DNA of 58,710 bases, from assembly GCA_945928315.1 (NCBI GenBank), contig CAMENN010000003.1, positions 1 to 58,710 on the forward strand, in the 5' to 3' direction. Origin of the DNA: an uncultured Clostridia bacterium. GTDB taxonomy: Bacteria; Bacillota; Clostridia; Christensenellales; Aristaeellaceae. Shown here one piece after another: positions 1,809 to 18,462 of the stretch. Within the stretch, counting starts at the first letter, position 1. Each line of letters starts with the position of its first letter. The notes under the pieces are model-generated. The model had not been told where the DNA came from. It saw only the letters and a list, made by a program, of their open reading frames with translations, and made no database searches. Position numbers and translations under genes: made by a program.

Positions 1809-3763
1809 AGCGAATGAAATGCTACATCTATACCCGTGTTTCCACCTCCATGCAGGTGGACGGCTACAGCCTGGACGCGCAGAAGGACAAGCTGCGCAAG
1901 TACGCGGAGTTCCAGAACATGCTCGTCGCCGGGGAATACTGCGACGAGGGCAAATCCGGCAAGAATATCGAGGGCCGCCCGGAGTTTCTGCGGATGCTGC
2001 GGGACATCGAATCCGGCAAGGACGGCGTCTCCTTTGTGCTGGTGTTCAAGCTCTCGCGCTTCGGCAGAAACGCCGCCGACGTGCTGACCTCCCTGCAGCG
2101 GATGCAGGATTACGGCGTCAACCTCATCTGCGTGGAGGACGGTATTGATTCCTCCAAGGACAGCGGCAAGCTGATGATTTCCGTCCTCTCCGCCGTCGCC
2201 GAGATCGAGCGCGAGAACATCCTCGTGCAGACGATGGAGGGCCGCAGGCAGAAGGCCCGCGAGGGCAAGTGGAACGGCGGCTTTGCCCCCTACGGCTACA
2301 AGCTCGTGGACGGACAGCTGCAGATTGCCGAGGAAGAAGCCGAGGTCATCCGCATCATCTATGACAAGTACATTCATACCACCATGGGCACCGCCAGAAT
2401 TGCAAACTGGCTCAACGAGCATGGATACAGCAAAATCTGCCGTCACAACAACAAGCGGGAGGCCTTCACAGGCTCCTTCCTCATCGGCGTGCTCGACAAT
2501 CCCGTGTACTGCGGCAAGCTGGCCTACGGGCGCAGGCACAACGAAAAGATTCCCGGGACCCGCAACCAGTACCACATCGTCAAGCAGAAGGACTATGCGC
2601 TCTACGACGGCATCCACGAGCCCATCATCTCCGAGGAGGACTGGCAACTCGCGCAGAAGCAGCGCCAGCAGACCAACAAGCGCCAGATCAAGACGCACAG
2701 CCTCGACCACGAGCACGTCCTGTCCGGGCTGCTCAAGTGCCCCGTCTGCGGCGGCGGTATGTACGGCAACGTGAACCGCAAGAAGAAGGGCGACGGTACC
2801 TATTACCGCGACTACTTCTATTACGCCTGCAAGCACCGCCTGCATGTGGACGGCAAGCGCTGCGACTATCACCACCAGTGGGGCGAGGAAATCATCGACG
2901 GCGCGGTGGAGGAAATCATCCACAAGCTGGTCAACACCCCCGCCTTTGAGCAGGGCATCCGGGAGAAGATCGGCGGGAAGCTGGACACCGCCGAGCTTGA
3001 CGCGGAGATGGAGACCCTGCGCAAGCAGCTCCGCCAGCTCACGGGCACCAAGGACAGGCTGGGCGAGCAGATCGACGCGCTCGATTTCGACGACCCGCAT
3101 TACACCCGCAAGGCGCAGGATCTGCAGGAGCGCCAAAACAGGGTCTACGACCAGATCGCCTCCATCGAGGTCAGCATCGCCGAGGTGCAGACCCGCATGG
3201 ACAACATCCGCCAGCACAGGATTTCCACCGACAACGTCTATCAGTTCCTGCTCTACTTCGACAAGCTGTACGACCAGTTCACCGACCTAGAGAAAAAGAC
3301 CTTCATGAACAGCTTCATCGAGCGCGTGGAGATTTACCCGGAGCGTCAGAGCGACGGGCGCATCGTGAAGCGCATCGAGTTCCGTTTTCCCGTGTATTTC
3401 AATGGTTCGGAGATCAGCGGACTTTGTTGGGACGAAACGGATATGTCGGAAACGGTGATGCTTCTGTCTAAACTCTCTGACGCCCGACATATCGACATTC
3501 ACGTCGATATGAACGAGCTGGATGTGACGCCCGCCGAAAGCCAGACGGCTGCGACCTATGACGACATCAAAGCGTATGTCAGGGAACACAGCGGTCTGAC
3601 GGTTTCGACGCTGTACATCGCGCAGGTGAAGCGGAAATACGGCATTCTCTCACGCGAATGCTACAACAAGGCAAAATCCGAGGAGGCGAAGCAGCCGCAA
3701 TGCCCGGCGGACAAGGAACGGGCGATTGCGGAAGCACTGAGGTTCTATGGCATGATCGCTTGA
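1805..3763 (+). CDS. Large serine recombinase (TnpX-type site-specific integrase)
   Basis: A 652-aa enzyme that would excise and integrate the element through a serine-linked double-strand break. The N-terminal resolvase domain (about 1-150) has the YTRVSTSMQ motif with predicted catalytic Ser13, plus KLSRFGRNA and AEIERENI. A recombinase domain follows (about 160-270), then a zinc beta-ribbon with CPVCGGGM and a later Cys pair (about 300-350), a coiled-coil insertion (about 390-460) and a C-terminal DNA-binding region. Length and order are complete for the family, so it is probably active. It overlaps the RhuM gene by four bases. A related fragment survives at 18255-18462. Confidence 0.92.
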   Translation: MKRMKCYIYTRVSTSMQVDGYSLDAQKDKLRKYAEFQNMLVAGEYCDEGKSGKNIEGRPEFLRMLRDIESGKDGVSFVLVFKLSRFGRNAADVLTSLQRMQDYGVNLICVEDGIDSSKDSGKLMISVLSAVAEIERENILVQTMEGRRQKAREGKWNGGFAPYGYKLVDGQLQIAEEEAEVIRIIYDKYIHTTMGTARIANWLNEHGYSKICRHNNKREAFTGSFLIGVLDNPVYCGKLAYGRRHNEKIPGTRNQYHIVKQKDYALYDGIHEPIISEEDWQLAQKQRQQTNKRQIKTHSLDHEHVLSGLLKCPVCGGGMYGNVNRKKKGDGTYYRDYFYYACKHRLHVDGKRCDYHHQWGEEIIDGAVEEIIHKLVNTPAFEQGIREKIGGKLDTAELDAEMETLRKQLRQLTGTKDRLGEQIDALDFDDPHYTRKAQDLQERQNRVYDQIASIEVSIAEVQTRMDNIRQHRISTDNVYQFLLYFDKLYDQFTDLEKKTFMNSFIERVEIYPERQSDGRIVKRIEFRFPVYFNGSEISGLCWDETDMSETVMLLSKLSDARHIDIHVDMNELDVTPAESQTAATYDDIKAYVREHSGLTVSTLYIAQVKRKYGILSRECYNKAKSEEAKQPQCPADKERAIAEALRFYGMIA

Positions 3764-3790
3764 TCTTCTGCGCTGCCTTCTATCATTCAT

Positions 3791-3844
3791 AACAGCACCT
3801 CCCAGCCAAAGCCCCGTTCGGGCGGCTGGGAGGTGTTGTTTTTC
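3791..3844 (+). terminator. Intrinsic terminator after the serine recombinase
   Basis: Long hairpin with arms CACCTCCCAGCC and GGCTGGGAGGTG (17-base arms with one mismatch) followed by TTGTTTTT. It lies between the convergent recombinase and GLUG genes, so it may serve both. The element end (att site) should also be close to here, because these recombinase genes usually sit at an element edge. Confidence 0.8.
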
Positions 3845-3884
3845 AGTTTATGAACTCATGCGGATACCCGCCAAAAGGCATTCG

Positions 3885-6035
3885 TCAGCGCAGCAGCTCC
3901 GCAGCCAGCGTATCGGCTTCCTCCGCCGTGATCTGGCGGTTGCCGGCGATGACCTCCGAATCCGCAGGCAGGAAGGGCGCGTAGACCGCGGCAGCAAAAC
4001 CGTCCGTATACGCGCTGTCGGTGTAATGCTCCGTCTCAAAGGCGTCGCGTTCGCTGTTGTGCAGCGTCAGACCGCAGATGCCGCCGACAAAGACGACGGA
4101 ATCATCCTCGGTCATGCGGACATTGGCTTCGACATCGCTGAGCGGCGCCACCCCCCTGGGCAGCAGGATGTGCCCCCGATTCAGGCAGGATACCACCACC
4201 GTGCCGAAGGCGGAGCCCACAATGCCGCCCACGGCGCTTCCGCCCATGGCGATCATGGTCTTTTCGGTGGCGTTCAGCACGCGGCCGTCGCCGGGCTCCC
4301 GGGGGACGTAATCCACCACGTTGATCGTCGCGTCCCCGTAGCTCAGATCGCCGCTGTTCACGCAGGAGCGAATCGTGCAGGCAGCCTTCCCTTCAAATCC
4401 AATTACATACCCTGCGGTGCATCCGCCGAGGATGCCGCCCAGCCGCCCGGACTGATTGCTGTGGATAGCGCCGGTGTTTTCGCACTGGGTGATCTCGATG
4501 AAGAAGTCTTTGCCACTGTGCATCAGTCGGCTCATGATGCCGCCGGCCGTGCCGGCATTCACCGTGACGCTGCCGCTGTTGCGGCATTTCCGGATGGTCA
4601 GGGAGCCGGAATCCCCCTCCCCATAAGAGAGCGTAGGATCGACGCCCCAGCCGAGAATGCCCCCGGCAGTGCCGGATTCTTCGGACGTTGCGGTCACGCT
4701 GCCCCGGTTTTCGCAGTCTTCAATGACAGAAGCGCCCATGGTGGTGTTGACTGAACCGACAATGCCGGCGACCCGGTCGCTGGCCGTCACGCTGCCGGCG
4801 TTGACGCACTGCTGCAGATGATAATTGCCATATTCCGAAAACACCTCACCTGTAATGCCGCCGACATTCTCCCGTCCAAGAACTTGACCGTTGTTGGTGC
4901 ACCCCTGAATGATGATCGTGCCTGCGGGACGAAAGACGGAGGACCCGTTTCCGGCGATGCCGCCTACCGCCTCCGATTCCACGGCGGTCACGCTGCCGTT
5001 GTTGGTGCAGCCGATGATCTCTCCGTTTGCCGGAATACTGATCCACTTGCCGTTTTCATCCTTCAGGGTTTTGCCGTTTTCATCCTTCGCATTGGTGGGG
5101 CCTGCGCTGACCTGGCCGCAGACGCCGCCGACCGATTGGGATTGCCCGTACACGGTGATGCTGCCGTTGTTGACGCTGTCCCGGAGCGCAGCTTGGTATA
5201 CATCGCCCACAACGCCGCCGCACCCCGAAAGAACGGGAGGATTCCGGACTTCGATGGATGCGTCGTTGACCAGCCGCTCACCCGTACAGGACAGCGTGCC
5301 GCAGACGCCGCCCACATTTCCGGAGTGATTCTCCGCCGCGATGCTGCCCGAGAAGGAGCAGTCCGCAAAGACATCGCCCCATACCCGACCGGCTACGCCG
5401 CCGCTGTCATACACATGATCCACGACGAGCCGGCCGGACACGTGGCAATTTTCAATCACGGAATCCGAGCTTGATCCCACAAGTAGACCGGCTTCCTGCT
5501 TTTCAGCGGCAATCAGCATGGAATCGGTAAGGTTGACGTTGCGGATCTGCGCACGGTCGGCCTTACCGAACAGGCCGCCGGCGGTCTTCTCCTTCTCATG
5601 CAGGAGCGCTGAAAGGCTGTACAGGCCGGAGATCGTGTGCCCCCGACCGTCGAACACCCCTTCAAAATCCCAATAGCCTCTATCATGCTTTCTGGTGCCG
5701 ATGGGTTCCCAGACATACACAGGCGGCTCGCTTTCCCAGTTGGCAAAATTGGCGGTGTCGTTCAGTTCGATGTCCGCCGTCAGGACATAGTACCCATACC
5801 GGTACAGATCCTGCTCATCCTGATGATCCCAGTCATATTCCTGATTGATCACCTTCGCCAGCAGGGCCAGCTGCTGGGCATTGGCAATCTGAAACGGATC
5901 CTCCGCCGTGCCGGAACCGCTCGCAAAGGCCTCCGCAGGCTCGATGCACATCGGCATGTTCTCCGCCGCACAAGCGCCTGCCCACAGGGGCAGCAACGCC
6001 GCGCACAGCAGCAGCGCCATGAGCATTTTCTTCAT
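3885..6035 (-). CDS. Secreted GLUG-repeat protein
   Basis: The start is the ATG at 6035 (MKKMLMALLL), with GAAGGAG upstream, rather than the longer ORF. A signal peptide runs to about residue 23 (WAGACAAE). The mature part, about 690 aa, begins with a typical pre-repeat block (GTAEDPFQIANAQQLALLAKVIN, quoted in part) and continues with many GLUG-type repeats. These have the pattern GGxxG...V..C.N.GSV and form a beta-solenoid such as GGIAGNGSSV and GGIVGSAFG. GLUG repeats occur in surface adhesins and IgA-protease-like proteins. No protease motif, LPxTG or C-terminal membrane segment is visible, so it may be released or bound non-covalently. It is last in the kinase-phosphatase run, 31 bases after the PrsW-FHA gene, and could be its exported effector. 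Confidence 0.8.
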   Translation of the reverse strand: MKKMLMALLLCAALLPLWAGACAAENMPMCIEPAEAFASGSGTAEDPFQIANAQQLALLAKVINQEYDWDHQDEQDLYRYGYYVLTADIELNDTANFANWESEPPVYVWEPIGTRKHDRGYWDFEGVFDGRGHTISGLYSLSALLHEKEKTAGGLFGKADRAQIRNVNLTDSMLIAAEKQEAGLLVGSSSDSVIENCHVSGRLVVDHVYDSGGVAGRVWGDVFADCSFSGSIAAENHSGNVGGVCGTLSCTGERLVNDASIEVRNPPVLSGCGGVVGDVYQAALRDSVNNGSITVYGQSQSVGGVCGQVSAGPTNAKDENGKTLKDENGKWISIPANGEIIGCTNNGSVTAVESEAVGGIAGNGSSVFRPAGTIIIQGCTNNGQVLGRENVGGITGEVFSEYGNYHLQQCVNAGSVTASDRVAGIVGSVNTTMGASVIEDCENRGSVTATSEESGTAGGILGWGVDPTLSYGEGDSGSLTIRKCRNSGSVTVNAGTAGGIMSRLMHSGKDFFIEITQCENTGAIHSNQSGRLGGILGGCTAGYVIGFEGKAACTIRSCVNSGDLSYGDATINVVDYVPREPGDGRVLNATEKTMIAMGGSAVGGIVGSAFGTVVVSCLNRGHILLPRGVAPLSDVEANVRMTEDDSVVFVGGICGLTLHNSERDAFETEHYTDSAYTDGFAAAVYAPFLPADSEVIAGNRQITAEEADTLAAELLR

Positions 6036-6066
6036 TGTGATTACTCCTTCTGTCAGTTGTGGCCTG

Positions 6067-7422
6067 TCATACAACCGTGAAGGCCTGTTCGTCGCTGCCG
6101 AGGACAAAGCTGTCGCCCGCCTTCAGCGGATAGCCGGTGCCGGGGCGAAGCCTTGCACCATTGAGGTATGTGCCTGCGTGGCTGCCCATATCCGCCAGGT
6201 ACAGCTGGCCCTGACGGACGAGCAGCTTGCAGTGCCTGCCGCTGATGCCGGGCGTGCTGACGGGATAGCTCAGCAGGCAGTCGGCGTCGCTGCCGATGAG
6301 GATTTCCGGCTTCGTCAGCGCAAAGGCGACGCCCGCATGTACCCCGGCCACGCACTGAACGCGCAGGGCGTTTGGGGCCCCCTGCCCGGCGGTAGCCACG
6401 CAGGCGCTGAGCTGCCCGAAGGATTTGCGCACTCCATAGCGGCAGCTGAGCCAAAGCAGCGCGGTGGCGGCGGGCAGCTTGAGCAGCAGGCCGCCGAAGG
6501 GCGCGTTCCAGAGGGCATGAACCAGAACGGAAAGCAAAAAGACCGCCCAGAAATCCATGTGACGCAGCGCAGCAAAGGGGTTGCCGCCTTTTATATGCAG
6601 GGCGGCGATGCAGCTGTACGGGGCGCAGTAGAGCACATGGCAGCACACCGCGCAGACGCCCCGCAGCACGATGGAAACCAGCACCGGAAGCAGGGTTTCC
6701 AGCACAAGGATCATGCTGACGCCATGAAGAAGAAGCTCATCATAGGAGATGTTCATCTGCAGGATGGCGTTCAGATAGGCGTCGTAGGCATACTGGGCGC
6801 TTTCAAAGGCGGCGAAGCCCGCGCCCACCGCCGCGCCGATGACCAGACCGTTCAGCCCGAACACCCTGCCCTTTTTTTGATGCAGGCGGCAGAGAAAGAA
6901 CATGGCGATGAGCAGCTTGCCCGGCTCCTCCGCCACGGGTGCCCATGAGGCCTCGTAGCCGGGAATCAGCGGGAAGAGCAGCAGGCTGACCATCAGCGAA
7001 AGCACGCCGCCGGTGAAGAAATACACGATGAGCTCGGCCAGGGAGATGTTCCGCGGCGCATTCATCTCCCAGAAGAGGATCATCAGCGTCACCGGCACCA
7101 CGCAGGGCGGCAGGAGGAACATGAGCAGGTTCAGGCAGGGATTGACGCACGCGCCCTGCACCGCGATGACCACCAGCGTAGCCGCGAGCAGCACGGCAGA
7201 CGCGGACAATCCGCCGCAGAACACCCGGAAAAACAGCCAGGGCCGCTGCCACTTCTGCAGCATGCTCATCTCGGTCTGGGCGGAATCGAGCGTTGTCCCG
7301 GCAATCATGGCGTAATCCGCGTCCTTCCGGGTGTGCTTTTCCCTCCAGCCAGAAAACACATCCCTCCACGTGAGCGACTCCGGACTGCGAATCAGCCTTT
7401 CAACCAGCGAGGGAGCGCTCAT
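6067..7422 (-). CDS. PrsW-type intramembrane protease fused to a C-terminal FHA domain
   Basis: A 451-aa protein. The start is the ATG at 7422, which shares one base with the VWA stop (TGATG), so the two are translationally coupled. About eight membrane segments cover residues 60-350. All three PrsW signature motifs are present: EEPGK (about 164), FESAQY (about 206) and HALWN (about 302). PrsW proteases cleave membrane-bound substrates such as anti-sigma factors. A cytosolic FHA domain (about 370-451) follows, with ISGRH, a DMGSHAGTYLNG block and the usual beta pattern. The first FHA motif reads IGS rather than IGR, so phosphothreonine binding may be altered. Co-encoded kinase and phosphatase suggest the FHA domain couples protease action to phosphorylation. 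Confidence 0.82.
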   Translation of the reverse strand: MSAPSLVERLIRSPESLTWRDVFSGWREKHTRKDADYAMIAGTTLDSAQTEMSMLQKWQRPWLFFRVFCGGLSASAVLLAATLVVIAVQGACVNPCLNLLMFLLPPCVVPVTLMILFWEMNAPRNISLAELIVYFFTGGVLSLMVSLLLFPLIPGYEASWAPVAEEPGKLLIAMFFLCRLHQKKGRVFGLNGLVIGAAVGAGFAAFESAQYAYDAYLNAILQMNISYDELLLHGVSMILVLETLLPVLVSIVLRGVCAVCCHVLYCAPYSCIAALHIKGGNPFAALRHMDFWAVFLLSVLVHALWNAPFGGLLLKLPAATALLWLSCRYGVRKSFGQLSACVATAGQGAPNALRVQCVAGVHAGVAFALTKPEILIGSDADCLLSYPVSTPGISGRHCKLLVRQGQLYLADMGSHAGTYLNGARLRPGTGYPLKAGDSFVLGSDEQAFTVV

Positions 7423-8087
7423 CACAGCTCCACAGTGATGGTGTTGGGCAGGGGTTCCAGCTCCACCTTGTTCATGGCGGGGTCGGAGTTGCTGACCACG
7501 CTCATGCTGCTGGAAAGCCACACGAAGGCTTCCTGGAAATTCTCCTTGGAGGCCTTGAGCACCATACCGCTGCCGTTTTTCGTATATTTTTTCAGGGTCT
7601 GGGTATCCGCGCCGCTGCCGATACCCATGGGGAAGAAGTTGATCTTTTTGTTGTTCAGCGCATCCTGCAGCCGCTGCTGGGCGTCCTGATACAGCTCATT
7701 GTCCGTGGGCACGCCGTCGGTGAGCAGGAACACCCACGGACGCCAGTAGTCCACACCCACGTCCTTGTATTCCTGCTTGCGCAGCTCTATCATGTCCAGC
7801 CCGGTGATGACAGCCTCGTTCATAACGGTCAGGCCTCCGGCGGTCAGCACGGGGGCGACATATTCCGCTGCGGGGCAGAAGGGAACCACCTGCTCCACCT
7901 TGCTGCCGAAGCTGATCACGCACACGTCGGCGCAGCCATAGGCCTTGGAATCGGATTTGAGGGCCTCGCCGAACACGCGCAGCCCCTCGTTCAGCTCGTC
8001 CATGGCCTCGCCGCTCATGGAGCCGGACACGTCCACCAGCAGGACGCAGGCGATGTGCTTCTCACCGTAATTCATGATGTTGTACAT
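7422..8087 (-). CDS. VWA domain protein, TerY/YegL-like
   Basis: A 221-aa single von Willebrand factor A domain without a signal peptide, so cytosolic. The complete metal-binding MIDAS site is visible: DVSGSMSG (D19, S21, S23), GGLTVM for the threonine, and FLLTDGVPTD for the last aspartate. Such proteins (TerY, YegL) act as metal-dependent protein-interaction hubs and are typically encoded with a PP2C phosphatase and an unusual kinase, as here. It is preceded by AGAAGGA and overlaps the PrsW-FHA gene by one base. Confidence 0.85.
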   Translation of the reverse strand: MYNIMNYGEKHIACVLLVDVSGSMSGEAMDELNEGLRVFGEALKSDSKAYGCADVCVISFGSKVEQVVPFCPAAEYVAPVLTAGGLTVMNEAVITGLDMIELRKQEYKDVGVDYWRPWVFLLTDGVPTDNELYQDAQQRLQDALNNKKINFFPMGIGSGADTQTLKKYTKNGSGMVLKASKENFQEAFVWLSSSMSVVSNSDPAMNKVELEPLPNTITVEL

Positions 8088-8142
8088 CTTCGTTCCTTCT
8101 TTCGTTATGTGTTGCTTTCTCGGGAGAGGCTAACGGAATACC

Positions 8143-8799
8143 TTACTTCTTCTTTCTGCCGCGGATCAGGGAAATGACCACGGACGCGCCCCACAGCATC
8201 AGGGAACTCATGATGTCCTGTCCCATAGCGTCGATGAGGGCGCTGTTCTGCTGGATCAGATGCGCGGCCTCCGACACGCGCACGCCCCACAGGTTGGCGC
8301 AGTAGAAGGAGTAACCGAAGGCCGTTCCCAGCATGATCATCAGCAGGGAGATGGGAATCGCGATCCAGACTGCCTTTTTCGAGGACGCAGCGCCCGCGCC
8401 CGAGAGCTTCTGATAGCCGTAGACCGCCAGGAAATAGGTGATGATGCCCGAAATGGCGGCGACAATGCCGATGTTGATCAGGATCGCCTGAACGACCGCG
8501 CCGCCCAGACCAAAGAGACATGCGCCAAGGAAGCCCTTGCCCACGTTCTCCGCAGCCAGGCCGGCGGCGGGCGCAGGCTGTGCCGGGGGCGTGCTGCTGC
8601 GCGCAGGCTGCGGGGCGGGCTGCGGGGCAGTCTGTACAGGCGGCGTGCTACTGCGCACGGGCTGTGCAGCGGGTCGCGCAGGCGGCGGAACGGGCCTTGC
8701 GGAGCCTGCCGGTGCATTGCCTCCGAGGGGCGTGCCGCAATAGGAACAGGTGGTGATCAGGTCCGAATAGGCCCTTCCGCATTGACTGCATTTTTTCAT
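8143..8799 (-). CDS. Zinc-ribbon membrane protein B of the kinase cluster
   Basis: A 218-aa protein. The N-terminus is a short zinc ribbon (CSQCGRAY..CSYCGTPL). A low-complexity Pro/Ala/Gln/Ser linker follows (about 27-80) with a repeated SSTPP unit, then three or four membrane segments (about 88-205) and a basic tail RGRKKK. The architecture matches the other zinc-ribbon membrane protein in the run (10335-11168) without clear sequence identity. GAAGGAGG lies just upstream of the ATG. Zinc ribbons joined to membrane domains by proline linkers are common in Firmicutes signalling loci. The biochemical role is unknown; membrane scaffold or substrate of the kinase is an inference. Confidence 0.7.
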   Translation of the reverse strand: MKKCSQCGRAYSDLITTCSYCGTPLGGNAPAGSARPVPPPARPAAQPVRSSTPPVQTAPQPAPQPARSSTPPAQPAPAAGLAAENVGKGFLGACLFGLGGAVVQAILINIGIVAAISGIITYFLAVYGYQKLSGAGAASSKKAVWIAIPISLLMIMLGTAFGYSFYCANLWGVRVSEAAHLIQQNSALIDAMGQDIMSSLMLWGASVVISLIRGRKKK

Positions 8800-8832
8800 G
8801 AGTATTCCTCCTTCTCCGGCGATTCTGCCGGA

Positions 8833-9198
8833 TCATTCGTTTCCTTTGGCGCTCTGTGCCGCGTCGCTCATGCCGGGCTGTTCCGTCGGTTCCAGCGTGG
8901 TTGTCGGCGTGGGCGTGGTTGTGGTTGTCGGTGTGGGTTCCGGCGTGGGAGTGGGTGTCGGCGTTGGGCTGCGACGGAGGGCTTCCAGCTCGCGTTCGGC
9001 GCTTTCCACTCTGCCCTGTGCGTCCCGGGCTGTCTGCTCCAGCGCGGCGCAGCTCTCCTCCAGCTCGTCGTACGCGCCGGACAGCGTGCTGTATTGCTGG
9101 GTAAGGTCATCAAATGCAGCCCGCTGCCGCATGGAAGTGAGCTGGTTGACCAGCAGCACGCCAAGCAGCAGCACGATCACCAGGGCCAGAACCGCCAT
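8833..9198 (-). CDS. Small single-pass membrane protein with coiled coil and Thr/Pro tail
   Basis: A 121-aa protein with an N-terminal membrane anchor (AVLALVIVLLLGVLLV), a coiled coil (about 25-75, YDELEESCAALEQTA) and a low-complexity tail of alternating Thr and Pro before a short acidic end. It starts 22 bases inside the end of the PP2C gene, so translation is probably coupled; no strong ribosome site is visible. The Thr-rich tail would be a natural phosphorylation target if it is cytosolic, but its topology is uncertain. No family recognised. Confidence 0.6.
   Translation of the reverse strand: MAVLALVIVLLLGVLLVNQLTSMRQRAAFDDLTQQYSTLSGAYDELEESCAALEQTARDAQGRVESAERELEALRRSPTPTPTPTPEPTPTTTTTPTPTTTLEPTEQPGMSDAAQSAKGNE
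8896..8968. repeat. Low-complexity GT-rich tract coding for a Thr-Pro tail
   Basis: Irregular tandem GTGGGC/GTGGTT/GTCGGT units within the small membrane protein gene. On the coding strand they read as alternating Thr and Pro codons. Such tracts can change length by slippage. Confidence 0.6.
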
Positions 9199-10322
9199 GG
9201 CGATTCTTTGGCGGATGATTTCTTTTTTCGCCCCTTCATCCTCGGGGCTTCCGGAAAAAAAGGGGCGTCCTCCACGGCTGTGTCGGGTTCTTCCACGGGC
9301 GTCGCCGCCTGCTCGGGCAGCTCCGGCTGAGCAGTCTTCTGCACAAACTTGTGATTCAGCGCCCGCCGCCTGGCGTTCATGCTCTCCTGCACGATGGTGG
9401 TAAAGAGCTCCATGCTGAAATCCGGCTGCTTGGCGTTGGCCATCCCCTCCGGGGACGCTACCGCCACCAGCGTCAGGTCGTCGGTAACCCGCTGCGTGTA
9501 TTCCTCCGACTGCAGAAAGGTCAAATACTGCTCCATGGCCGTCTCGGCTGCGCCGTCACTGTCTTGTGCCAGCTGCTTCATGGCGTCCTCCATGAAGGCG
9601 TAGCAGATGCCGTTGAAGTAGTTGATACCGAAGTAATCGGGGTGGCTCTGCACGAAGGCGTCCAGCACGCCATCGGTCGCCATGACGAAACCGGCAACCT
9701 CCGGCACCAGCCCGAAGCTCCATGCCTTCTCGCCGCATTGCAGCGGGTAGACGCTGCTCGCTTCCTCGCCCTTCATCCGGCGGGTCGCCATTTCCACGGT
9801 ACCGTCGGGCAGCTGGGCGACAATGCCGTCGTCCCCCGCGTGCCCATGGTAGAGGCACTTTCCGTCATAAATCGCCAGCGTCAGGGTGGATTGCAGGGCG
9901 AATACCATCTGCGGCGGCTCCGCATCGTCCGCCAGGCGCTCCACCGCATCCTGCGCGGCCCGGAAGGCGGAAACCATGATTTCCTTCATCTGCTTGCGGA
10001 ATTCTCCGCTTTCGGCGTCCAGCCGAAGGCGCTTTCCGCCCGCCAGATCGCTCAGCGCTTCCCGGGCGCTTTCCAGCGCAGCGTTCACCGCCGTATAGGC
10101 GCCCCAGTGGGAGAGCTTGCAGCTGCCCACACCGTCGGCGATGGCGGCAAGGAAAATACCCTCATCCTCCATCCAGCACAGGGCATGCGCATCCTGACAG
10201 GGTGCGGGCGGCGTGCTTTTCCTGTGCGACGCGCCCTGAAGCGTGATGCCGAAGGCCGCAACGGCGGGATTCTGCACGGCTTCACAGACTTCATTCTGTG
10301 GGAATTCCTGCAATAAATCCAT
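9177..10322 (-). CDS. PP2C-family protein phosphatase (PphC/YegK-like)
   Basis: A 381-aa metal-dependent Ser/Thr phosphatase. Motifs: CQDAHAL (about 43), the metal-binding ADGVGS (about 63), HAGDDG (about 160), ATDGVLDAF (about 215) and TDDLTLVAV (about 285). After the catalytic domain (to about 300) comes a roughly 80-aa extension ending in a basic, Trp-containing tail (KGRKKKSS...RFWPW). No membrane segment is seen. AAAGGAG precedes the ATG. It should oppose the kinase encoded two genes upstream. The VWA-PP2C-kinase combination is the known TerY-P triad, and E. coli YegI-PphC-YegL is a relative. Confidence 0.85.
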   Translation of the reverse strand: MDLLQEFPQNEVCEAVQNPAVAAFGITLQGASHRKSTPPAPCQDAHALCWMEDEGIFLAAIADGVGSCKLSHWGAYTAVNAALESAREALSDLAGGKRLRLDAESGEFRKQMKEIMVSAFRAAQDAVERLADDAEPPQMVFALQSTLTLAIYDGKCLYHGHAGDDGIVAQLPDGTVEMATRRMKGEEASSVYPLQCGEKAWSFGLVPEVAGFVMATDGVLDAFVQSHPDYFGINYFNGICYAFMEDAMKQLAQDSDGAAETAMEQYLTFLQSEEYTQRVTDDLTLVAVASPEGMANAKQPDFSMELFTTIVQESMNARRRALNHKFVQKTAQPELPEQAATPVEEPDTAVEDAPFFPEAPRMKGRKKKSSAKESPWRFWPW

Positions 10323-10334
10323 AGCGACACTCCT

Positions 10335-11168
10335 TTACGATTTTGTGATGACCTTGCCTCTGAGCATAAGCAGACGGAGGGTACGGAACGGATAGCTGAG
10401 GCAGAAAAGCAGCATCGCGCTGCACGCAACACCCGCGCCAGCCTTGTCCAGCGCATCCCACCGGTTCCTTCCGCCGAGTCTTCCCAGCATGCTCAGATTG
10501 TGGGCAATATGCGTCAGGGGCATGTTCTCAAGAATCAGAAACGCACCATACAGCGCCCCGACGCTGAACCAAATGCCCAGAAACGGCCACTTGAGGACGA
10601 TGCGTTCATGGAAGGAGAACAGGCTGAGTGCGCCATCGGACGACGCACTGACCTGCGCCGCCAGCTCCGAGGGCGTTTTTTTCAGGCGCGCAAAGCTGCC
10701 AAAGAGCCCCCAAAACCCGACGAGCAGACCCGGAGCCACCGTTGCCAGCGATAATTCGATGAAATCCCCGGTGCGATTCCCGTAGTACAGCCAGTTGTTC
10801 AGCAGAAGGCAGAGGGCGATGACGAGCAAAAGCAGCATCCGGAAGATGTACATGAATTGGTTTCTTCGGAACATCCGCAAAAGCTCCGGCGACAACGCCC
10901 CCGCCGCCGGTTGCTGCGCTGCGGCGCGCTGCGGCTGGGGAGCCTGCTGCTGCACCACGGGCGGCGTCTCCTGCCGGGGCGGCGGCGTCTCCTGCCGGGG
11001 CGGCGTCTCCTGCGCTTGCTGATGCGGCGGAATCCATGTTTCCGGCTCCACGTCAATCTCAATCGGCCCCATGACGTTCTCCGGGGCCTGCTCCAGATTC
11101 AGCCCGCATGCGGGACATACGCGTACATCCTCCGAAAAAGTTCTTCCGCAATAAATACACGTTTTCAT
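10335..11168 (-). CDS. Zinc-ribbon membrane protein A of the kinase cluster
   Basis: A 277-aa protein. The start is the ATG at 11168 (MKTCIYCGRTF), with AAGGAGA upstream, not the longer ORF. An N-terminal zinc ribbon (CIYCGRTF..CPACGLNL) is followed by an acidic stretch, a proline-rich linker with three QETPP repeats (about 50-75) and four membrane segments (about 100-270). It lies 12 bases before the PP2C gene and 32 bases after the kinase, so it is in the same transcript. Its role is unknown; the domain plan parallels protein B at 8143-8799. Confidence 0.7.
   Translation of the reverse strand: MKTCIYCGRTFSEDVRVCPACGLNLEQAPENVMGPIEIDVEPETWIPPHQQAQETPPRQETPPPRQETPPVVQQQAPQPQRAAAQQPAAGALSPELLRMFRRNQFMYIFRMLLLLVIALCLLLNNWLYYGNRTGDFIELSLATVAPGLLVGFWGLFGSFARLKKTPSELAAQVSASSDGALSLFSFHERIVLKWPFLGIWFSVGALYGAFLILENMPLTHIAHNLSMLGRLGGRNRWDALDKAGAGVACSAMLLFCLSYPFRTLRLLMLRGKVITKS
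10962..11013. repeat. Three tandem copies of a CGGCGTCTCCTGC unit
   Basis: CGGCGTCTCCTGCCGGGG occurs in three near-perfect copies spaced 18-21 bases apart within zinc-ribbon protein A. They encode the repeated QETPP linker. Copy number is likely to vary by slippage. Confidence 0.75.
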
Positions 11169-11200
11169 GAATATCTCCTTTGTTTTCGACAGCCGGACAA

Positions 11201-12556
11201 TCAGATGCGATCTGCGATCAGGATGATACCGAGCAAAACAATGCCCCAGAAAAGAAGCGGTGCGAGGCAGCTTTTGTAGCAACCGGTTATCTCACTGGCT
11301 AAGCTGCCGTTATTCTGCTGCTGAGCGGGAGCCGCCGGCGGCGTGGGAGACGCGGCAGATGGTTTCGGTTGCGCGGGGGGATTGGCCGCAGCAGGCTTGG
11401 GCGGGCTGGCGGGCTTTGAAGAGGCTGCGGCAGACTTTGCCGCGGCTGCCTTTGCGGTTTGCGCCTTGCGGAACGAGGCGAGCCGCGCATCCGCTGCGCA
11501 CAGCCCGCATTTGCCCATATGACGCAGGTAGAAATGCCTTGCGCTGTTGCGGCAGCGGTAGGCCTGGCCCGGGGTATAGAACTGGTTCATGAACTGCTGC
11601 AGGTCCGTCACCCATTGGGCGGCGGTGGTGCGCTCCCTTGCGCGCTCCTGAATGTTCGATGCGTCGTAATTGAAGGTGCGGTAAAAATCCTTGACCAGCT
11701 GCTGCGACACCATCTCGTTCAGATAGGGCGCGCCGATGGGCACCGTCAGATCCGTATAATTATGAATAAAGGGGCATTTGCCGTTCACAAGGTGATCCAG
11801 CCGCTGGTTGGTGGAGGTGGAATCCTTGATGACCACCAGATTTTTCCCAGTGAAGGGATGGAAGTTGTTCATCAGCAGCTGGAAGATGTGGATGGCGAGG
11901 GCGAAATTGTCGCTGTGCTTGGAGAACACCGCGCCGGGCGAACGAAGGTTGCGCCCCTGCAGCTCCGGCGCCAGATAGTCCTGCGTGCCGGCGCAGCAGC
12001 GGAAATGCATGCCCGAGGCGGTATCCAGCAGATCAAAGCTGTCGTTGTCCAGCATGGTGATGAGGCCGCCGGGCGATACCATGATGTTCTTGCAGTTCAG
12101 GTCGCCCACGATGCAGTTGCGGGCATGCAGATACGCCACGGCCTTGGCCAGATTGAGCGCCACCTGCAGGTTGAACATCCAGTTGTAGTCGGGGAACATG
12201 GCCTGCGCCTTGGGCATATCGCAGCCGCGGGCGATCGTGCAGATTTCCACGCCGTTCTGTATAAAGGGCATGGTGTAGCCGATAAAGGCGCCCTTTTCAT
12301 CGCAGAGAATATCCTGCGGCCAGGCCAGGGCGAGAATCACCTTGCCCCTGCTGTCGCGAAGGTCCTCGATGGGATGCTGCACCATGTAGCGGATTTTGCC
12401 TTCGACCTCGGGTTCCACCTTCTTGTAGATTTTCCCCACCAGTTTCTCCCCGGTAATCCGGTATACGCGGCCCTCGCCGCCGGCGCCAACCTCTTTCCCC
12501 AGGGTGTAGCGCCGCCCGTTCAGGCCGCAAACCGTGCTGCCTTCCTGCACAGCCAT
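11201..12556 (-). CDS. YegI-like protein kinase with C-terminal membrane anchor
   Basis: A 451-aa kinase. The ATG at 12556 is chosen because AGGAGGTG lies five bases upstream; the earlier ATG at 12592 has no ribosome site. Kinase motifs: a glycine loop GAGGEGRVY (24-32), VGK with Lys42, a catalytic loop VGDLNCKN (about 148-156, GD replacing the usual RD), DND in place of DFG (about 168) and APELQ. A Cys-containing block near 325-345 (YRCRNSARHFY...CGLCAAD) resembles the post-kinase segment of COG4248 proteins. An Ala/Pro/Lys linker follows, with one C-terminal membrane helix (FWGIVLLGIILIA). It is first in the run and probably phosphorylates cluster partners at the membrane. Confidence 0.85.
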   Translation of the reverse strand: MAVQEGSTVCGLNGRRYTLGKEVGAGGEGRVYRITGEKLVGKIYKKVEPEVEGKIRYMVQHPIEDLRDSRGKVILALAWPQDILCDEKGAFIGYTMPFIQNGVEICTIARGCDMPKAQAMFPDYNWMFNLQVALNLAKAVAYLHARNCIVGDLNCKNIMVSPGGLITMLDNDSFDLLDTASGMHFRCCAGTQDYLAPELQGRNLRSPGAVFSKHSDNFALAIHIFQLLMNNFHPFTGKNLVVIKDSTSTNQRLDHLVNGKCPFIHNYTDLTVPIGAPYLNEMVSQQLVKDFYRTFNYDASNIQERARERTTAAQWVTDLQQFMNQFYTPGQAYRCRNSARHFYLRHMGKCGLCAADARLASFRKAQTAKAAAAKSAAASSKPASPPKPAAANPPAQPKPSAASPTPPAAPAQQQNNGSLASEITGCYKSCLAPLLFWGIVLLGIILIADRI

Positions 12557-12590
12557 GCCGCCACCTCCTGAGCTTTCGATAATACGCTTC

Positions 12591-12619
12591 ATTGTAACAA
12601 ACCGCTCTGCCGGCAGCAA
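12591..12619 (-). promoter_or_regulatory. Predicted sigma-A promoter of the kinase operon
   Basis: On the minus strand, TTGCTG (-35) is followed after 17 bases by TACAAT (-10), about 35 bases before the kinase ATG. The spacing is ideal and the -35 is weak, which fits a controlled promoter. Confidence 0.55.
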
Positions 12620-12638
12620 GGAAATTTCCGGCGAATTG

Positions 12639-12720
12639 CTGCACAAAAAGTGCAAATTTTCCGGGCGGTCATCCGCATGCCGCACCCTCTGCACAAAAAG
12701 GACAAAATCGCGCACAAAAC
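12639..12720. promoter_or_regulatory. Repeated TGCACAAAAAG elements in the divergent kinase/STAND control region
   Basis: CTGCACAAAAAG occurs at 12639-12650 and again at 12689-12700, exactly 50 bases apart (about five helical turns). A partial copy CGCACAAAAC lies at 12711. The first copy extends into an inverted repeat, TGCAC-AAAAA-GTGCA (12640-12654). The region lies between the kinase operon and the STAND gene and could be a shared operator. The same 12-mer appears inverted in the merR promoter at 50495. Confidence 0.5.
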
Positions 12721-12726
12721 CGGAAA

Positions 12727-15717
12727 ATGGACGGCCTGCGCTTGAAAAAGGACGGCGCAATAGAGTATCCTTATAAGGTCAAAGATTTGAGAAAGGTGCT
12801 GACTCAGGTGGAGAGAATCACGCTTTCCCTCAAAAGCATATACCGGCTACTGATGAACGATGATTTCCCGGTGTACTCGGATCGGGTCATCGGCAAAAAG
12901 CAGCGAAAGGGGCAGACGCTGCTGCGCTTTTGGAAGGATATCATGGCGCACGAGTTCTGCTCCCTGCCCTACGGCAAGATGATCTGGCGGGACGACGGCA
13001 TGCGCAGCCGTTCCTTTTCCAATCTGTGCAACCGCAACGACGAGCTGAAGATTTACCACGAGTACGCCAGAGAGCTGGGCTCGTGCATTTCTGCCGATAC
13101 GCTGCTCCATCAGATTGATCTGTTTGAGCGCTTCCTCACGGCGCGGGAGTATTCCGACGCGGCGCTGCGCTACCGCACCGGGGCGTTCCTGCGCGTGCTT
13201 CATGACGATGAGTGCGTCACCGGGGCGATCGGCGGGCATCTCGCGGGCATCTTCGAGGCGCTCAGCAGCAATACGGACGCCGAACCGGAGCTTGCCGCGT
13301 TCCGCGCGGCGTATCTGCTGACGGTGATGACGCTGTATGCGGCGGCGGGGACAGCCATGGGCGATTCCTGCATGGCTGTGCTCCGGGACGATGCGCTCGG
13401 CATGGACGCCCTGTGGGCGCTGCGCACGCAGAAGCAAACGCAGGGCAACCGCGAGGTCCGGATTCTGACGGCCTACTCCGCGCTCTTGCAGGACACCTCC
13501 CTGTCCCGGAACCGCTTTTTCGGGCGGGAGGCGGAGCTGTTCGACCTGCAGGACCTCGCGGCGTCCGGGCAAAAGTGCCTGATCTCCGGCATCGGCGGCA
13601 TTGGCAAAACGGAGCTGCTGCGCCAGCTGGTTCGCCGCTGTCTCGAGGAGCGCCTGGTGGACAAGCTGGCGATCATTCCCTACCGTACGAGTCTGGCGGA
13701 GAGCATGGTCTATGCGTTCCCGGATCTGATGATGCTCAAGCAGGACGAGGCGCTGCACAGCGCGCTCTACCGGCTGCGGCGCGAGGCGCAGGACGGGACG
13801 CTGCTGCTGCTCATCGACAACGTGACCAACGACGCGGATGCCGACGCCGGCTTGCTTTCCCTTGCCGAGCTGCCCTGCACGGTGATGGCGACCTCCCGGC
13901 TGTCGGCGCTTTCGGGCTTTGAGCCGTATCCGCTGGGCGCGCCCGCCCCGGACGCCTGCGCACTGATCTTCCGGGACAACTACGGCAGTCCCCTCTCTGT
14001 CGCGGAGCGCGGCGAGCTTTCACAGCTTTTGTCCCGCCCGGACTTCTGCCATCCGCTGACCCTGCGGCTGATGGCCCGCGCGGCGGGGAGCAAGGACTGG
14101 ACGGTGGGCGCGCTGCGCGAGAGCCTTTTGCACGATGCGGCGCTGACCTATGTGGAGGACGGGCAGCAGGTCAGGATTGAGCAGGTGCTCGCCCGGCTGT
14201 ATCCCGCCAACCGGATTCCCAAGGGCTGCGAGACGGTGATCCAGCTGTTCACCCTGCTGCCCCGTGACAGCTATCCGGCGGACACGCTGCTCACGGATTT
14301 CCCGCAGCTGTTCCCGGATCGCGACGAGCTTGCCCGGAACCTGGCCCTGCTGGTGCGTCAGGGCTGGCTGGAGCAGGATGAAAGCGGTTGCTCCATGCAT
14401 CCGCTCATCGCCCAGTGCCTGCGCCGCAAGACCCTGCCGGAGTCCTGGCTGGCGCCCTTCCTTTCCAATCTGCGCCCGCGGCTGTCCGGTGCAGACCGGG
14501 AGTTCTCTGCCGAATGCCGGCGTGCCGTTGCCATCATCCCGTACAGCCTGCAGTTCCTGACCGGCCCCATCAGCGGCGCGCTGCTGATGGATCTGATGGA
14601 TGCGATGGATATGCAAGTTCCTTTCCAGTCGCAGAGGGAGCAACACTGTCAGTGGCTGAAGCAGCTGCTGCGCCGCTGCCCGGACCGGGACGATACCGTG
14701 GACGTCTCATGGCACGGGCTGCTGTGCATCTGGTCGATGGATGAAGAGGAAACGGTACGGGCTGTCTTTGACAAGCAGCGTCAGGCGCGTACCGTCCCGC
14801 TGGACAGGTATCTGGAATTCTGCCATGCCGCCAGCTCCCAGTTGGCCTTCAAAAATCCGGTCTTGTCGGAGCAGCTGGCCCAGGCTGTTCTGGCTGAGGC
14901 GGACGCTCCTGCCGTGAACAAAGTGCGCGCCTATCTCAGACTGGCACAATGTGCGGAGTTTGCCGGACACGCTGAAGAGGCCCTGCATCTGGCCCGAACC
15001 AGTCTCCAGTATTCGCAGGATCCCCAGGTGTGCTGTGGCAGGGAAGCCCTGGTGAGTTCGGCCTTCTGCGCTACGCTGTGCATCAAGTTCGGACAGGGCG
15101 AGGAAGCAAAGCCCCTGCTGGACAGGTTGGGGACAATCGACACGCTCTCCATGTACCCGGATCTCTATTGGGAATATTTGTTTGCCCTTGGCACGTGGGA
15201 GCTGTATTTCGGCGACATGGATAACGCCCGCAAGGCGTATGAACAGGCGCTGCAGAGTGCCGAGGAACTCACGGGAAAAAATCCCGCCTACTTTGATTGC
15301 CTCAACCAGCTTGCAATTATCGCACAGCGGCAAAATCGCTTTGACGATGCGAAAGCCGCTTATGAGGAAATCCTCGACGAACGCTCCGGGCATGTGTACG
15401 GCAACGTCGCCCGGAACAATTACGCCGTGCTGCTGCTGGACATGGGGCAGCCGGAGGAGGCCCTGCACGTCATCGCGCAGGTGCTGGCCATCGCGCGGGA
15501 GCATGGCGGCATCGCCCTGGGCGAAGCCCTTCGGAATAAGGCCCGCGCCCACGGCATGTTGGGCGACAATGCCCAGGAGCGCGAATGCCTCACGGAAGCG
15601 CTGCCGCTGCTGGAGCAAGCCTACGGCCCGGAGCATCCCAGACCCACGGCGGCGAGGGAGCGGCTTGCGCAGCTGCGGGAGCAGGAAGCGCAGGCGGAGC
15701 AACCGCTTTCACCATGA
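12727..15717 (+). CDS. STAND NTPase (NB-ARC-like) with C-terminal TPR repeats
   Basis: A 996-aa protein. Residues 1-250 form a mostly helical N-terminal domain I do not recognise. An FGREAEL motif (about 261) opens the nucleotide-binding module, with Walker A GIGGIGKTEL (about 290), Walker B LLLLIDNV (about 358), a sensor MATSR (about 388) and an HPLTLRL block (about 437) matching the GLPL position. A winged-helix-like part follows, with MHPLIAQCLR (about 556). From about 700 to 985, TPR-like helices are seen (LGTWELYFGDMDNARKAYEQ, EAYAAYEEIL-type). No signal peptide, so cytosolic. STAND proteins act as switch-like sensors in signalling and phage defence. Divergent from the kinase operon. The ribosome site is weak (GGAAA). 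Confidence 0.8.
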   Translation: MDGLRLKKDGAIEYPYKVKDLRKVLTQVERITLSLKSIYRLLMNDDFPVYSDRVIGKKQRKGQTLLRFWKDIMAHEFCSLPYGKMIWRDDGMRSRSFSNLCNRNDELKIYHEYARELGSCISADTLLHQIDLFERFLTAREYSDAALRYRTGAFLRVLHDDECVTGAIGGHLAGIFEALSSNTDAEPELAAFRAAYLLTVMTLYAAAGTAMGDSCMAVLRDDALGMDALWALRTQKQTQGNREVRILTAYSALLQDTSLSRNRFFGREAELFDLQDLAASGQKCLISGIGGIGKTELLRQLVRRCLEERLVDKLAIIPYRTSLAESMVYAFPDLMMLKQDEALHSALYRLRREAQDGTLLLLIDNVTNDADADAGLLSLAELPCTVMATSRLSALSGFEPYPLGAPAPDACALIFRDNYGSPLSVAERGELSQLLSRPDFCHPLTLRLMARAAGSKDWTVGALRESLLHDAALTYVEDGQQVRIEQVLARLYPANRIPKGCETVIQLFTLLPRDSYPADTLLTDFPQLFPDRDELARNLALLVRQGWLEQDESGCSMHPLIAQCLRRKTLPESWLAPFLSNLRPRLSGADREFSAECRRAVAIIPYSLQFLTGPISGALLMDLMDAMDMQVPFQSQREQHCQWLKQLLRRCPDRDDTVDVSWHGLLCIWSMDEEETVRAVFDKQRQARTVPLDRYLEFCHAASSQLAFKNPVLSEQLAQAVLAEADAPAVNKVRAYLRLAQCAEFAGHAEEALHLARTSLQYSQDPQVCCGREALVSSAFCATLCIKFGQGEEAKPLLDRLGTIDTLSMYPDLYWEYLFALGTWELYFGDMDNARKAYEQALQSAEELTGKNPAYFDCLNQLAIIAQRQNRFDDAKAAYEEILDERSGHVYGNVARNNYAVLLLDMGQPEEALHVIAQVLAIAREHGGIALGEALRNKARAHGMLGDNAQERECLTEALPLLEQAYGPEHPRPTAARERLAQLREQEAQAEQPLSP

Positions 15718-15725
15718 CGTTGCAT

Positions 15726-15772
15726 AAAACGGCCCTGTCCGGGTTTTCGCCGGGACAGGGCCGTTTTTGCCG
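15726..15772 (+). terminator. Strong intrinsic terminator after the STAND gene
   Basis: Perfect 15-base arms AAAACGGCCCTGTCC / GGACAGGGCCGTTTT around a short loop, followed by a T-run, eight bases after the stop codon. The A-run on the other side makes it potentially bidirectional. Confidence 0.9.
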
Positions 15773-16168
15773 GTCGTTATAGCCACAGTGCGCTTGCCTG
15801 GCAGTCCATGCCTGCCGCAGCCAATCGCCCACGGGCGAAAGTCGGAAGGAAACCCCATCCTCCGGGAGGAGCCGGCATCTGTACCTGTGCAGCCCGGCGA
15901 TCTTCTTCAAGTGCTGAACACGGTCGCACTCCCGGCTCCGCCCATCCATAGCGTCAAGCAGTATGAAGCCGATCCCGACGATGTGTATCGCCGCCTTGGC
16001 TGCTGATGCTCTTTGATGCGCATGCGCACCGCGTTCCTGAATCATTTCCCGCATCGCGCTGCTCCTGCGACACCAAAACGCCTCTCGCACACCAGCCTGC
16101 AAAACCGGAAGCGATGCAGCCCATCGTCCCTCATCCCCGAGGTTTCCAAAGGGGCCGCAGCCCCTTGG

Positions 16169-16208
16169 CACACTGACCTTGCCCGCAAGGTCTAGTGTGT
16201 TATACCTT
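16169..16208 (+). other. oriT-like site of the MOBV (pMV158) type
   Basis: The arrangement matches the pMV158/MOBV transfer origin. CACACT-GACCTTGC is followed by CC and GCAAGGTC-T-AGTGTG, forming a hairpin. The nick motif TAGTGTG|TTATAC follows, with predicted cleavage between 16199 and 16200, and AAGGT/ACCTT arms flank the nick. The TAGTGTG-TTATAC core is the family signature as I know it. No Mob/Pre relaxase gene is present in the window. Confidence 0.6.
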
Positions 16209-16379
16209 CGCGCAAGGGACAGGCACACCCGACCGGCAGCTCTGCGCTTCTCCCTCCTGGCCCGGCGCGAAGGGATACCGTGCCCCGCTCCCGTCGCTCC
16301 ACGGACGCCGCCATTCTCTACGCCGGATTCTCCTCGTCGTGTTTCCGCGCTCCGTGTCCTACCAATTCCATAACGCTTG

Positions 16380-16428
16380 GCATTTGCAGTCCTTTGGAAT
16401 CCATTTCCGAATGACTGCAAATGCTTTT
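16380..16428 (+). terminator. Inverted repeat with T-run, possible terminator
   Basis: Twelve-base arms GCATTTGCAGTC / GACTGCAAATGC with a 21-base loop, followed by TTTTTCT. The loop is long for an intrinsic terminator, so an operator or element-end repeat is an alternative. Confidence 0.45.
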
Positions 16429-16635
16429 TCTATGCCTTTTATACCTGCAAGAAGCGCACCGGTACGCCCTGCGCAATGCAAAAATTTCGAAAAAAACACA
16501 GAAAATCTGAAAACAGGGTTCCAAAGCCCCTTTTCCCACACATGTCAATAGTAGAGGAAGAATATGGATTCGGCCTCATCAGGGCTCCCATTTCTCCCGG
16601 TTTCCACATGGCTATTTTGAAGGGAGGCAGATCGT

Positions 16636-18183
16636 TTGAACTTCATCCAGAACACTAAAAACCCTAAAAACACTGAAAACCCCGTCTCTCACACCGGGCA
16701 GGCTCCGGGCTTGTTCAACCCCTATGTCCCTCTCACGCCCAGCGCAGACACGCTGCCCGCATTCCCGATTCATTGCCTGCCGCTGCGATTGCAGTCCTAC
16801 GTTGCCGCCGTCGCGGAGCACACGCAGACGCCGGTGGACATGGCCGCCGGTATCTCGCTTGGCGTGCTCGCCACCTGCCTGCAGGGAAAGGTCCGGGTGG
16901 AGGGTAACCCGGGACACTACGAGCAAACCAGTCTGTATGTGTTCATCGTCGCCAATCCGGGCGCGCTCAAATCCGCTGTCATCCGTGCCATGACCGCCGT
17001 CATTGAGGACTACGAGCAGGCGTACAACGAAAGGCTGAAGCCGCAGATTCGCAAGCGCCGTCAGGAGCGCGAGGCGCTTCAGCGGCAGATCAACCGCCTG
17101 AACCGCCAGCTCGAACAGAAATACGACAGCATGACCGAGTTGGAGCTTCAGCACGCGCAGGACAATCTGGCCGATCTGTCGGCAATCCAGCCCCTGCAGA
17201 TCTTCACGGACGATTGCACGAGCGAGATGATGGTCAGGCTGCTCAAGGACAACGGCGGGCGCATGGCGCTGATCTCCGCCGAGGGCGGCGCGTTCGACGC
17301 GATCATCGGGCGGTATTCCAAGAAGCCCAATCTGGACGTCTGGCTCAAGGGTATCTGCGGCGACACCATTCGAGTGGATCGTCTGAACCGTGAGCCGGAT
17401 TATGTCCGGCACCCGGCGGTGTCCATGATCCTGACGGCACAGCCCAGCGTGCTGAGCGAAATCATGCAGAACGGCATGCTCGACGGGCGCGGCTTTCTGG
17501 CTCGCTTCCTGTATGTGAACATCCCGCCGGCGGCAGTGCCCCGGTCCTTCCAGTCTGCGCCAATCCCACAGGATGTGCAGGAGGATTACCGTGAACTGAT
17601 TCACGGGCTGCTGAGCCTGCCGCCGGAGACGGACATCGTGCTGCACCTTTCCCCCGAAGCTGTTGAGCTGATGGGAGGTGTCTGCAACGGGTTGGAGCAG
17701 TACCTGATTCACGAAGCCCGTGATATGCGCGAGTGGGGCAGCAAGCTCATCGGCCTCGTTCTGCGGATCGCCGGGCTGATTCACGTAGCCTCAGGGCTGA
17801 CCGGGGACATCAGCGCCGACACGATCAGGCGCGCCATCTGCATCGGACGGTACGCATTCCAGCACGCCATGTATGCCTATTCCATCATCAGCGCCGACGA
17901 AACTATCGAGAAAGCGCTGCACGTCGTGTCCAGGCTGCGCAAGCACCGCATCCGGGACATCAGCCAATCCGCTCTGTACCAGCTTTGCCGTGGGCGGTTC
18001 TTCCGCGACGCGAAGGAGCTGGTGCCCGCTTTGGAGCTGCTGGAGCAGCACGGCTACATCTGGCGGGACACGCCGCTCTACAGCGGTGTGAGCAGACCGC
18101 CCTCCCGCACGATCCATGCCATCTCATCAATGCCCGTTATCCCGCCATCCACGATGGCACCATCGACTGCGATTCCTCCATGA
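16636..18183 (+). pseudogene. DUF3987 (YfjI-like) mobile-element protein, 3' end damaged
   Basis: A 515-aa ORF using a TTG start with GGGAGG nine bases upstream. It matches DUF3987 proteins found with primase or replication modules of clostridial integrative elements: a conserved N-terminal block (LPLRLQSYVAAVAEHTQTP), a P-loop-like NPGALKSAV (about 111), a coiled-coil insertion (about 140-175), ISAEGGAFD (about 217), and LTAQPSVLSEIM followed by GRGFLARFLY (about 275-300). After PPSRTIHA (about 485) the expected family ending is lost and the frame runs into unrelated Pro/Ser/Thr-rich sequence. The 3' end is therefore a deletion or recombination junction near 18118. It may be non-functional. 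The nearby oriT-like site and recombinase fragment suggest one decayed element. Confidence 0.75.
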
Positions 18184-18254
18184 CCGTCGTGCTGCCCGGT
18201 AACAGGGCGCTGCCAGTCTCGTTCTGATCAGGCTGTTTGATGCCGGTAAGGTTT

Positions 18255-18462
18255 TCGGCGAGTATGAGGATGCGGGCAAGCTGATGATCTCCGTCCTCTT
18301 CGCGGTAGCGCAGATTGAACGTGAGAACATCCACGTGCGGAGGGCCGCATCCAGAAGGCCCCCGAGGGCAGATGGAACGGCGGCTTCGCGCCCTACGGCT
18401 ATGGCCTCGTCAACGGGCGGCTGGTCGTCAACGAGGAAGATGCCAAAGCCGTCCGTCTGTCC
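18255..18462 (+). pseudogene. Fragment of a large serine recombinase
   Basis: The translation reads KLMISVLFAVAQIERENIHV and then, after a frameshift near 18335, APEGRWNGGFAPYGYGLVNG followed by EEDAKAV. This parallels residues about 121-180 of the intact recombinase at 1805-3763 (KLMISVLSAVAEIEREN...GKWNGGFAPYGYKL). The catalytic serine region and the DNA-binding part are missing. It marks decay or deletion within a former integrative element. Confidence 0.85.

Follow-up and report, generated by a model that had tools for sequence, protein, structure and literature searches.

The transfer origin found in this locus raises the question of how an oriT of the MOBV type has come to lie in a chromosome without a relaxase gene beside it, and whether such an origin could still be used for transfer. 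The window, that is, the whole stretch of DNA that was analysed (58,710 nucleotides), is the entire contig C3 of a MAG of an uncultured Clostridia bacterium, which comprises 2.94 Mb in 189 contigs and is 93% complete.

The transfer origin and its relatives

The site at 16141-16212 is a genuine MOBV-type oriT of the pMV158 type. Read 5' to 3' on the plus strand, it consists of an upstream hairpin, CCAAAGGGGC/GCCCCTTGG (16146-16168), the CACACTGACCTTG/CAAGGTCTAGTGTG inverted repeat and the nick core TAGTGTG|TTATAC (16193-16205). Together, CACACTGACCTTG and CAAGGTCTAGTGTG make up a 31-nt inverted repeat, CACACT-GACCTTG/CAAGGTC-T-AGTGTG (16169-16199), which lies directly 5' of the nick and ends at it, is immediately preceded by the abutting upstream hairpin, and is the equivalent of IR1/IR3 of pMV158. 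The ACCTT arm at 16204-16208 can pair with AAGGT at 16187-16191, which would yield an alternative hairpin around the nick resembling pMV158 IR2. The nick itself is placed between 16199 and 16200, as inferred from identity with the mapped nick of pMV158, with the G|T position taken from PMC5863519 and PMC5090054.

The core is highly specific. The pattern TAGTGTGTTATA (16193-16204, plus strand) is the sole match in the window at up to one mismatch, with 0.01 expected, and has a single exact match in the whole assembly (none for the reversed-pattern control); the MOBV nick core TAGTGTG|TTA within it (16193-16202) is likewise unique in the genome. When the published 43-nt oriT of pMV158, which with MobM is the MOBV1 prototype (PMC5863519), was compared with both strands of the window, the top score fell on this site (16.0; runner-up, 13.5). 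Folded as single-stranded DNA, the segment 16140-16215 forms two abutting hairpins (z = -4.9), and none of 200 shuffled sequences folded as well. The Rfam scan of the window gave no match, and the promoter and terminator scan yielded no promoter and only one terminator-like site, at 15853-15867, with none at the oriT. The hairpin, core and AAGGT/ACCTT arms by which the initial annotation had recognised a pMV158-type origin are all present, and its placement at 16146-16208 is right as to location, but the conserved block is slightly wider.

A 75-base search located this block in 31 of 250 genomes from the host's family (a count that includes the host), and similar blocks occur on Pusillibacter, Subdoligranulum and Lactobacillus plasmids as well as in contigs from faeces that had been submitted as phage sequences; the exact oriT pattern was absent from viral contigs. 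Several of the copies in other MAGs sit at contig ends. Across 25 aligned origins, the core is invariant and the two-hairpin layout is common, with 24 of the 25 folding in this manner individually. Paired cells amount to 94.9%, compared with 25-52% in slid controls, in statistics that ignore relatedness. The main inverted repeat, the second of the two hairpins, keeps 95.7% of its pair cells. Both-sided changes, again counted regardless of relatedness, affect four pairs of the first hairpin and a single compensatory pair of the second. A hairpin occupies the equivalent upstream position, with compensatory changes, in 24 of the 25 origins, a count biased towards presence of the first hairpin because the search query contained it. 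Two origins that were found via the second hairpin alone (L074 and L076) have a hairpin of a different sequence at that position. A smaller novel possibility is that MOBV origins in the host's clade constitutively include, as their second part, the abutting hairpin upstream.

The origins are tightly linked to relaxases. In all 16 fetched loci that carry both (15 plus L144), a MobV relaxase gene is located downstream of the oriT on the same strand, at a distance of 1.3 to about 10.5 kb, and all 11 relaxases that were examined contain the HxxR and HxDExxPHxH motifs. In locus L006, the origin is identical to the window oriT in 70 of 75 positions and the MobV gene lies 1.3 kb downstream; in the best relative of the window element, L045 (contig 28 of genome G162, G162:C28; CAMDVP010000028.1, from an uncultured Clostridia bacterium), the oriT is identical over all 72 bases, with flanking noncoding DNA 71-89% identical, and the MobV gene, on the same strand, follows after 1.9 kb. 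The resemblance to MOBV origins, taken together with the fold common to the 25 origins, extends far beyond the core, as the comparison proposed in the initial annotation was meant to establish. A related MOBV oriT is also found at 8001-8068 of a Lactobacillus amylovorus plasmid typed as non-mobilizable (NZ_CP104880.1), about 0.4 kb from aadE and ant(9); no relaxase of this plasmid is apparent either in the annotation or by the MobV profile.

The host presents a different picture from the 16 linked loci, and the earlier statement that no Mob/Pre relaxase remains holds for the window and the assembly alike. A profile of 11 relatives detected no relic of a MobV relaxase in the six frames of the window, and no Mob_Pre relaxase was found in the 93%-complete assembly, although the same search was positive in 13 of 18 other oriT-bearing genomes (the other 5 have no Mob_Pre match); given that binning often loses mobile elements and that completeness is 93%, a MobV relaxase may be present elsewhere in the cell. 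Searches of the assembly for a MOBP relaxase and for a VirD4-type coupling protein were likewise negative. The assembly encodes one MOBQ relaxase of the MobA/MobL type (G000:C55:19005-19544, minus strand) which, belonging to another family, is not expected to use a MOBV origin.

A remnant and its intact relative

L045 carries a complete module on its minus strand, in which the oriT (core at 8928) is followed by genes for a DUF3987 protein (8611-7100), a MobV relaxase (7036-6059; Mob_Pre/MobV, Pfam E-value 3.8e-47; NCBIfam MobV, 140 bits against a cut-off of 100), a Cys-rich VLP protein (6034-5459; a Pfam match under the cut-off, 24 versus 27 bits) and a large serine recombinase (3334-1328); on the other side of the element is an rlmD-like gene (16024-14396). 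Parts of this module recur as oriT-DUF3987-MobV in L063 and as DUF3987-MobV-VLP in L102, a contig of a horse-faeces MAG; the DUF3987 scan of the genome collection matched only the record of L045 itself and one horse-faeces MAG contig. The ancestral order is accordingly read mainly from L045, the one near relative with the full module at high identity, with L063 and L102 contributing partially. In L063 (286-326; G162:C185), the DUF3987-MobV pair is intact and the left half of the origin has been replaced so that only TTGCAAAGTCTAGTGTGTTATAC is left.

The segment 16006-18459 of the window is collinear with 9371-2729 of L045 save for deletions: 16006-16084, 16120-16245, 16372-18117, 18117-18247 and 18267-18459 correspond, in this order, to 9371-9293, 9001-8876, 8875-7130, 5830-5699 and 2928-2729. 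The left-most homologous stretch (16006-16084, plus strand, as are all features of the remnant) is 86% identical to its counterpart. Downstream of the oriT, the leader of the DUF3987 gene includes a 20-bp inverted repeat followed by TTTTTC (16380-16424), which is conserved in L045. The DUF3987 gene (16636-18183; 515 aa) is 94% identical to that of L045 up to codon 494, with a dN/dS of 0.087, and beyond this codon runs on out of frame into the VLP remnant. Here, at 18117/18118, lies the first deletion junction, where about 1.3 kb of L045 is gone, namely the end of the DUF3987 gene, the whole MobV gene and the start of the VLP gene. What is left of the latter (18117-18247; 86% identical, with a 1-bp gap) lacks the gene start. 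At the second junction, 19 bp (18248-18266) replace about 2.8 kb of L045 (5698-2929), and the remnant ends with an N-terminal piece of the large serine recombinase (18267-18459) that is equivalent to residues 136-202 of the L045 protein and contains a 7-bp gap; neither the remainder of the recombinase gene nor the element's right end is present. Both junctions were read on one MAG contig, and the limits of the element were set by loss of homology to L045.

The remnant has neither the relaxase nor the intact recombinase of its own that an intact integrative mobilizable element (IME) would possess. Because two internal deletions, one of which took the MobV gene, separate it from L045, the oriT was very probably orphaned by deletion inside an IME, as judged from this sequence comparison. 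The visible deletion, along with the truncation of the recombinase gene, goes beyond the initial annotation. With that gene truncated, the element has no recombinase of its own that could excise it.

The oriT shows no differences from L045 over its 72 bases, compared with 28 in the 263 bases of the adjacent noncoding leader of DUF3987 and a dS of 0.31 for the DUF3987 gene. The amino acid changes in DUF3987 divide into 10 in the lineage of the window and 9 in that of L045, with 9 unassigned, and since they are split evenly, there is no sign of long relaxed decay. These figures are most simply explained if constraint acted on the module during the greater part of the divergence and the deletion is comparatively recent.

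No empty counterpart of the site was identified: a DNA search with the response-regulator flank in 29 members of the genus gave only weak, partial matches, and none of the rlmD neighbourhoods, compared in 20 regions, was syntenic with the window. As L045 has cargo between rlmD and oriT, 3764-16005 was considered as a cargo region belonging to the same IME and arranged in tandem after the recombinase (1805-3763); no sequence homology supports this candidate, and the element is therefore limited to 16006-18459. The left part of the window (1-3763) is the right end of another mobile element, encoding TnpV (260-667), a RhuM-type protein (741-1808) and a complete large serine recombinase (1805-3763). 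Over its last ~113 residues, this recombinase shares 93% identity with the C-terminal tail of the rlmD-like rRNA methyltransferase of L045, and the rlmD genes of the host's genus occur both with and without such a tail, suggesting that integration might swap the tails of rlmD and the recombinase. Just left of the IME remnant is a cluster (7422-15717) whose genes read as those of von Willebrand-type, FHA-like and phosphatase-like proteins, of a protein kinase (11201-12760) and of a large, TPR-containing ATPase (12727-15717), the kinase and the ATPase being the two that were matched to Pfam; it is possibly a signalling or defence island.

Possible use of the orphan origin and alternative explanations

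The ancestral IME would have had the order oriT, DUF3987, MobV relaxase, Cys-rich VLP and serine recombinase. Two internal deletions would then have cost it the relaxase gene and the greater part of the recombinase gene, whereas the oriT and the DUF3987 gene appear to have stayed intact. In the intact element, by analogy with MobM (PMC5863519) and MobSag (PMC5090054), the MobV relaxase is predicted to bind the hairpin and cut TAGTGTG|TTA, after which the strand would leave via a borrowed conjugation channel with the relaxase's own gene in the leading DNA. The direction that we infer has T16200 leading the transferred strand, such that DNA of higher coordinates would enter first. The window oriT is expected to be silent unless a matching MOBV relaxase is supplied by another element. 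If an outside MOBV relaxase nicked it and a conjugation channel were available, transfer of DUF3987 and the chromosome to the right of 16200 would be Hfr-like, given that excision by the element's own recombinase is precluded. Mobilisation in trans, which the initial annotation had put forward together with transfer of the neighbouring chromosome, is plausible, and the oriT may still be usable. The farther-reaching proposal is that the orphan origin is still used, with co-resident MOBV relaxases nicking it and moving the neighbouring chromosome in Hfr fashion, and that copies without a relaxase, such as this one, those of several MAGs from the host's family and that of the Lactobacillus resistance plasmid, form a population of cryptic transfer starts in gut bacteria; this appears rather improbable.

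Closely related is the possibility of a live, oriT-only hitch-hiker (iOriT), in which the origin is selected for mobilisation in trans by a resident MOBV element and loss of the relaxase is adaptive. Such IMEs and plasmids that use foreign relaxases are an accepted class (PMC11389934), and this interpretation would fit the perfect oriT between diverged flanks, the five other genomes that have the same oriT and also lack a Mob_Pre match, and the Lactobacillus plasmid with its relaxase-less origin beside resistance genes. However, the recombinase gene is broken too, which deprives the element of an enzyme of its own for excision, the assembly yielded no MOBV relaxase and no coupling protein of the VirD4 type, and conservation of the oriT can predate the deletion, so that this explanation seems unlikely. 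Still less probable is an assembly artefact, in which the contig would bypass an element that is still complete in the cell: fragmentation of the assembly and the location of several oriT copies at contig ends in other MAGs would be compatible with a faulty join, but the VLP and recombinase pieces bear small indels and substitutions, as decayed genes do, and no other contig contains a MobV gene. Finally, a chance likeness to an oriT, with the hairpins being those of a transcription terminator or of a palindromic repeat dispersed in the genome, is hardly credible, because, even though the left arm of the first hairpin belongs to a dispersed repeat, the core is found once in the genome, the site has no terminator call and the block as a whole reappears, with compensatory changes, upstream of MobV genes in many genomes; for the nick-bearing hairpin, the genome count and the relaxase linkage refute this explanation.

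The doubt voiced in the initial annotation, that the hairpin might be a widespread terminator, is thereby dispelled, in that the nick core is unique, there is no intrinsic terminator and only the upstream hairpin resembles a dispersed one. The left arm of the latter, GGTTTCCAAAGGG, has 26 copies in the genome at up to one mismatch (none for the reversed control); its exact matches in the assembly number 22, including the one in the oriT hairpin. The copies that were read are mostly located within the dispersed repeat GAAGGTTTCCAAAGGGCGATCGGAAAGCCCTTTGGCGGGG. Given these 26 occurrences, the upstream hairpin does not by itself indicate the oriT, and only the second hairpin with the core identifies it. 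A dispersed repeat with two hairpins and the core GAAGGTTTCCAAAGGGCGATCGGAAAGCCCTTTGGCGGGGCGTTGGGGCAGAGCCCC is present at 47035-47222 of the window (minus strand) and elsewhere in the genome.

Comparison with known systems

Orphaning by deletion inside an IME, the preferred explanation, places the locus in an ordinary class, that of oriT-only IME remnants; the useful detail is the readable deletion and the second hairpin. Direct comparison shows an oriT becoming an orphan, with an internal deletion removing the relaxase and the origin staying perfect. Orphan origins decide which DNA is movable by a foreign relaxase, including plasmids typed as non-mobilizable, and the alignment provides a usable description of the MOBV origin in the host's gut family, second hairpin included, that should aid in finding such sites.

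With the pMV158 oriT, the window site shares the nick core, the CACAC...AAAGT/AAGGT...GTGTG inverted repeat and the alternative repeat across the nick (PMC5863519), but it differs in having GC-rich arms (ACCTTG/CAAGGT) and a second, abutting hairpin upstream, and in residing in a chromosomal remnant that has no relaxase gene. IMESag-rpsI of Streptococcus agalactiae, a functional MOBV1 IME, is likewise chromosomal, with a MOBV relaxase and a pMV158-like oriT (PMC5090054); it encodes a tyrosine integrase and an intact relaxase, whereas the window element combined a serine recombinase with DUF3987 and has lost its relaxase. The combination of MobV relaxase and large serine recombinase is shared by the intact relative L045 and mobilizable transposons of the Tn4451 type (PMC5704250), from which L045 is distinguished by DUF3987 upstream of the relaxase, the Cys-rich VLP downstream and an apparent position next to rlmD. 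Retention of the oriT without a relaxase is a trait in common with iOriT elements and decayed IMEs (PMC11389934, PMC5704250); here, the causal deletion is directly readable and the recombinase is broken as well, which makes the locus a remnant rather than a proven hitch-hiker.
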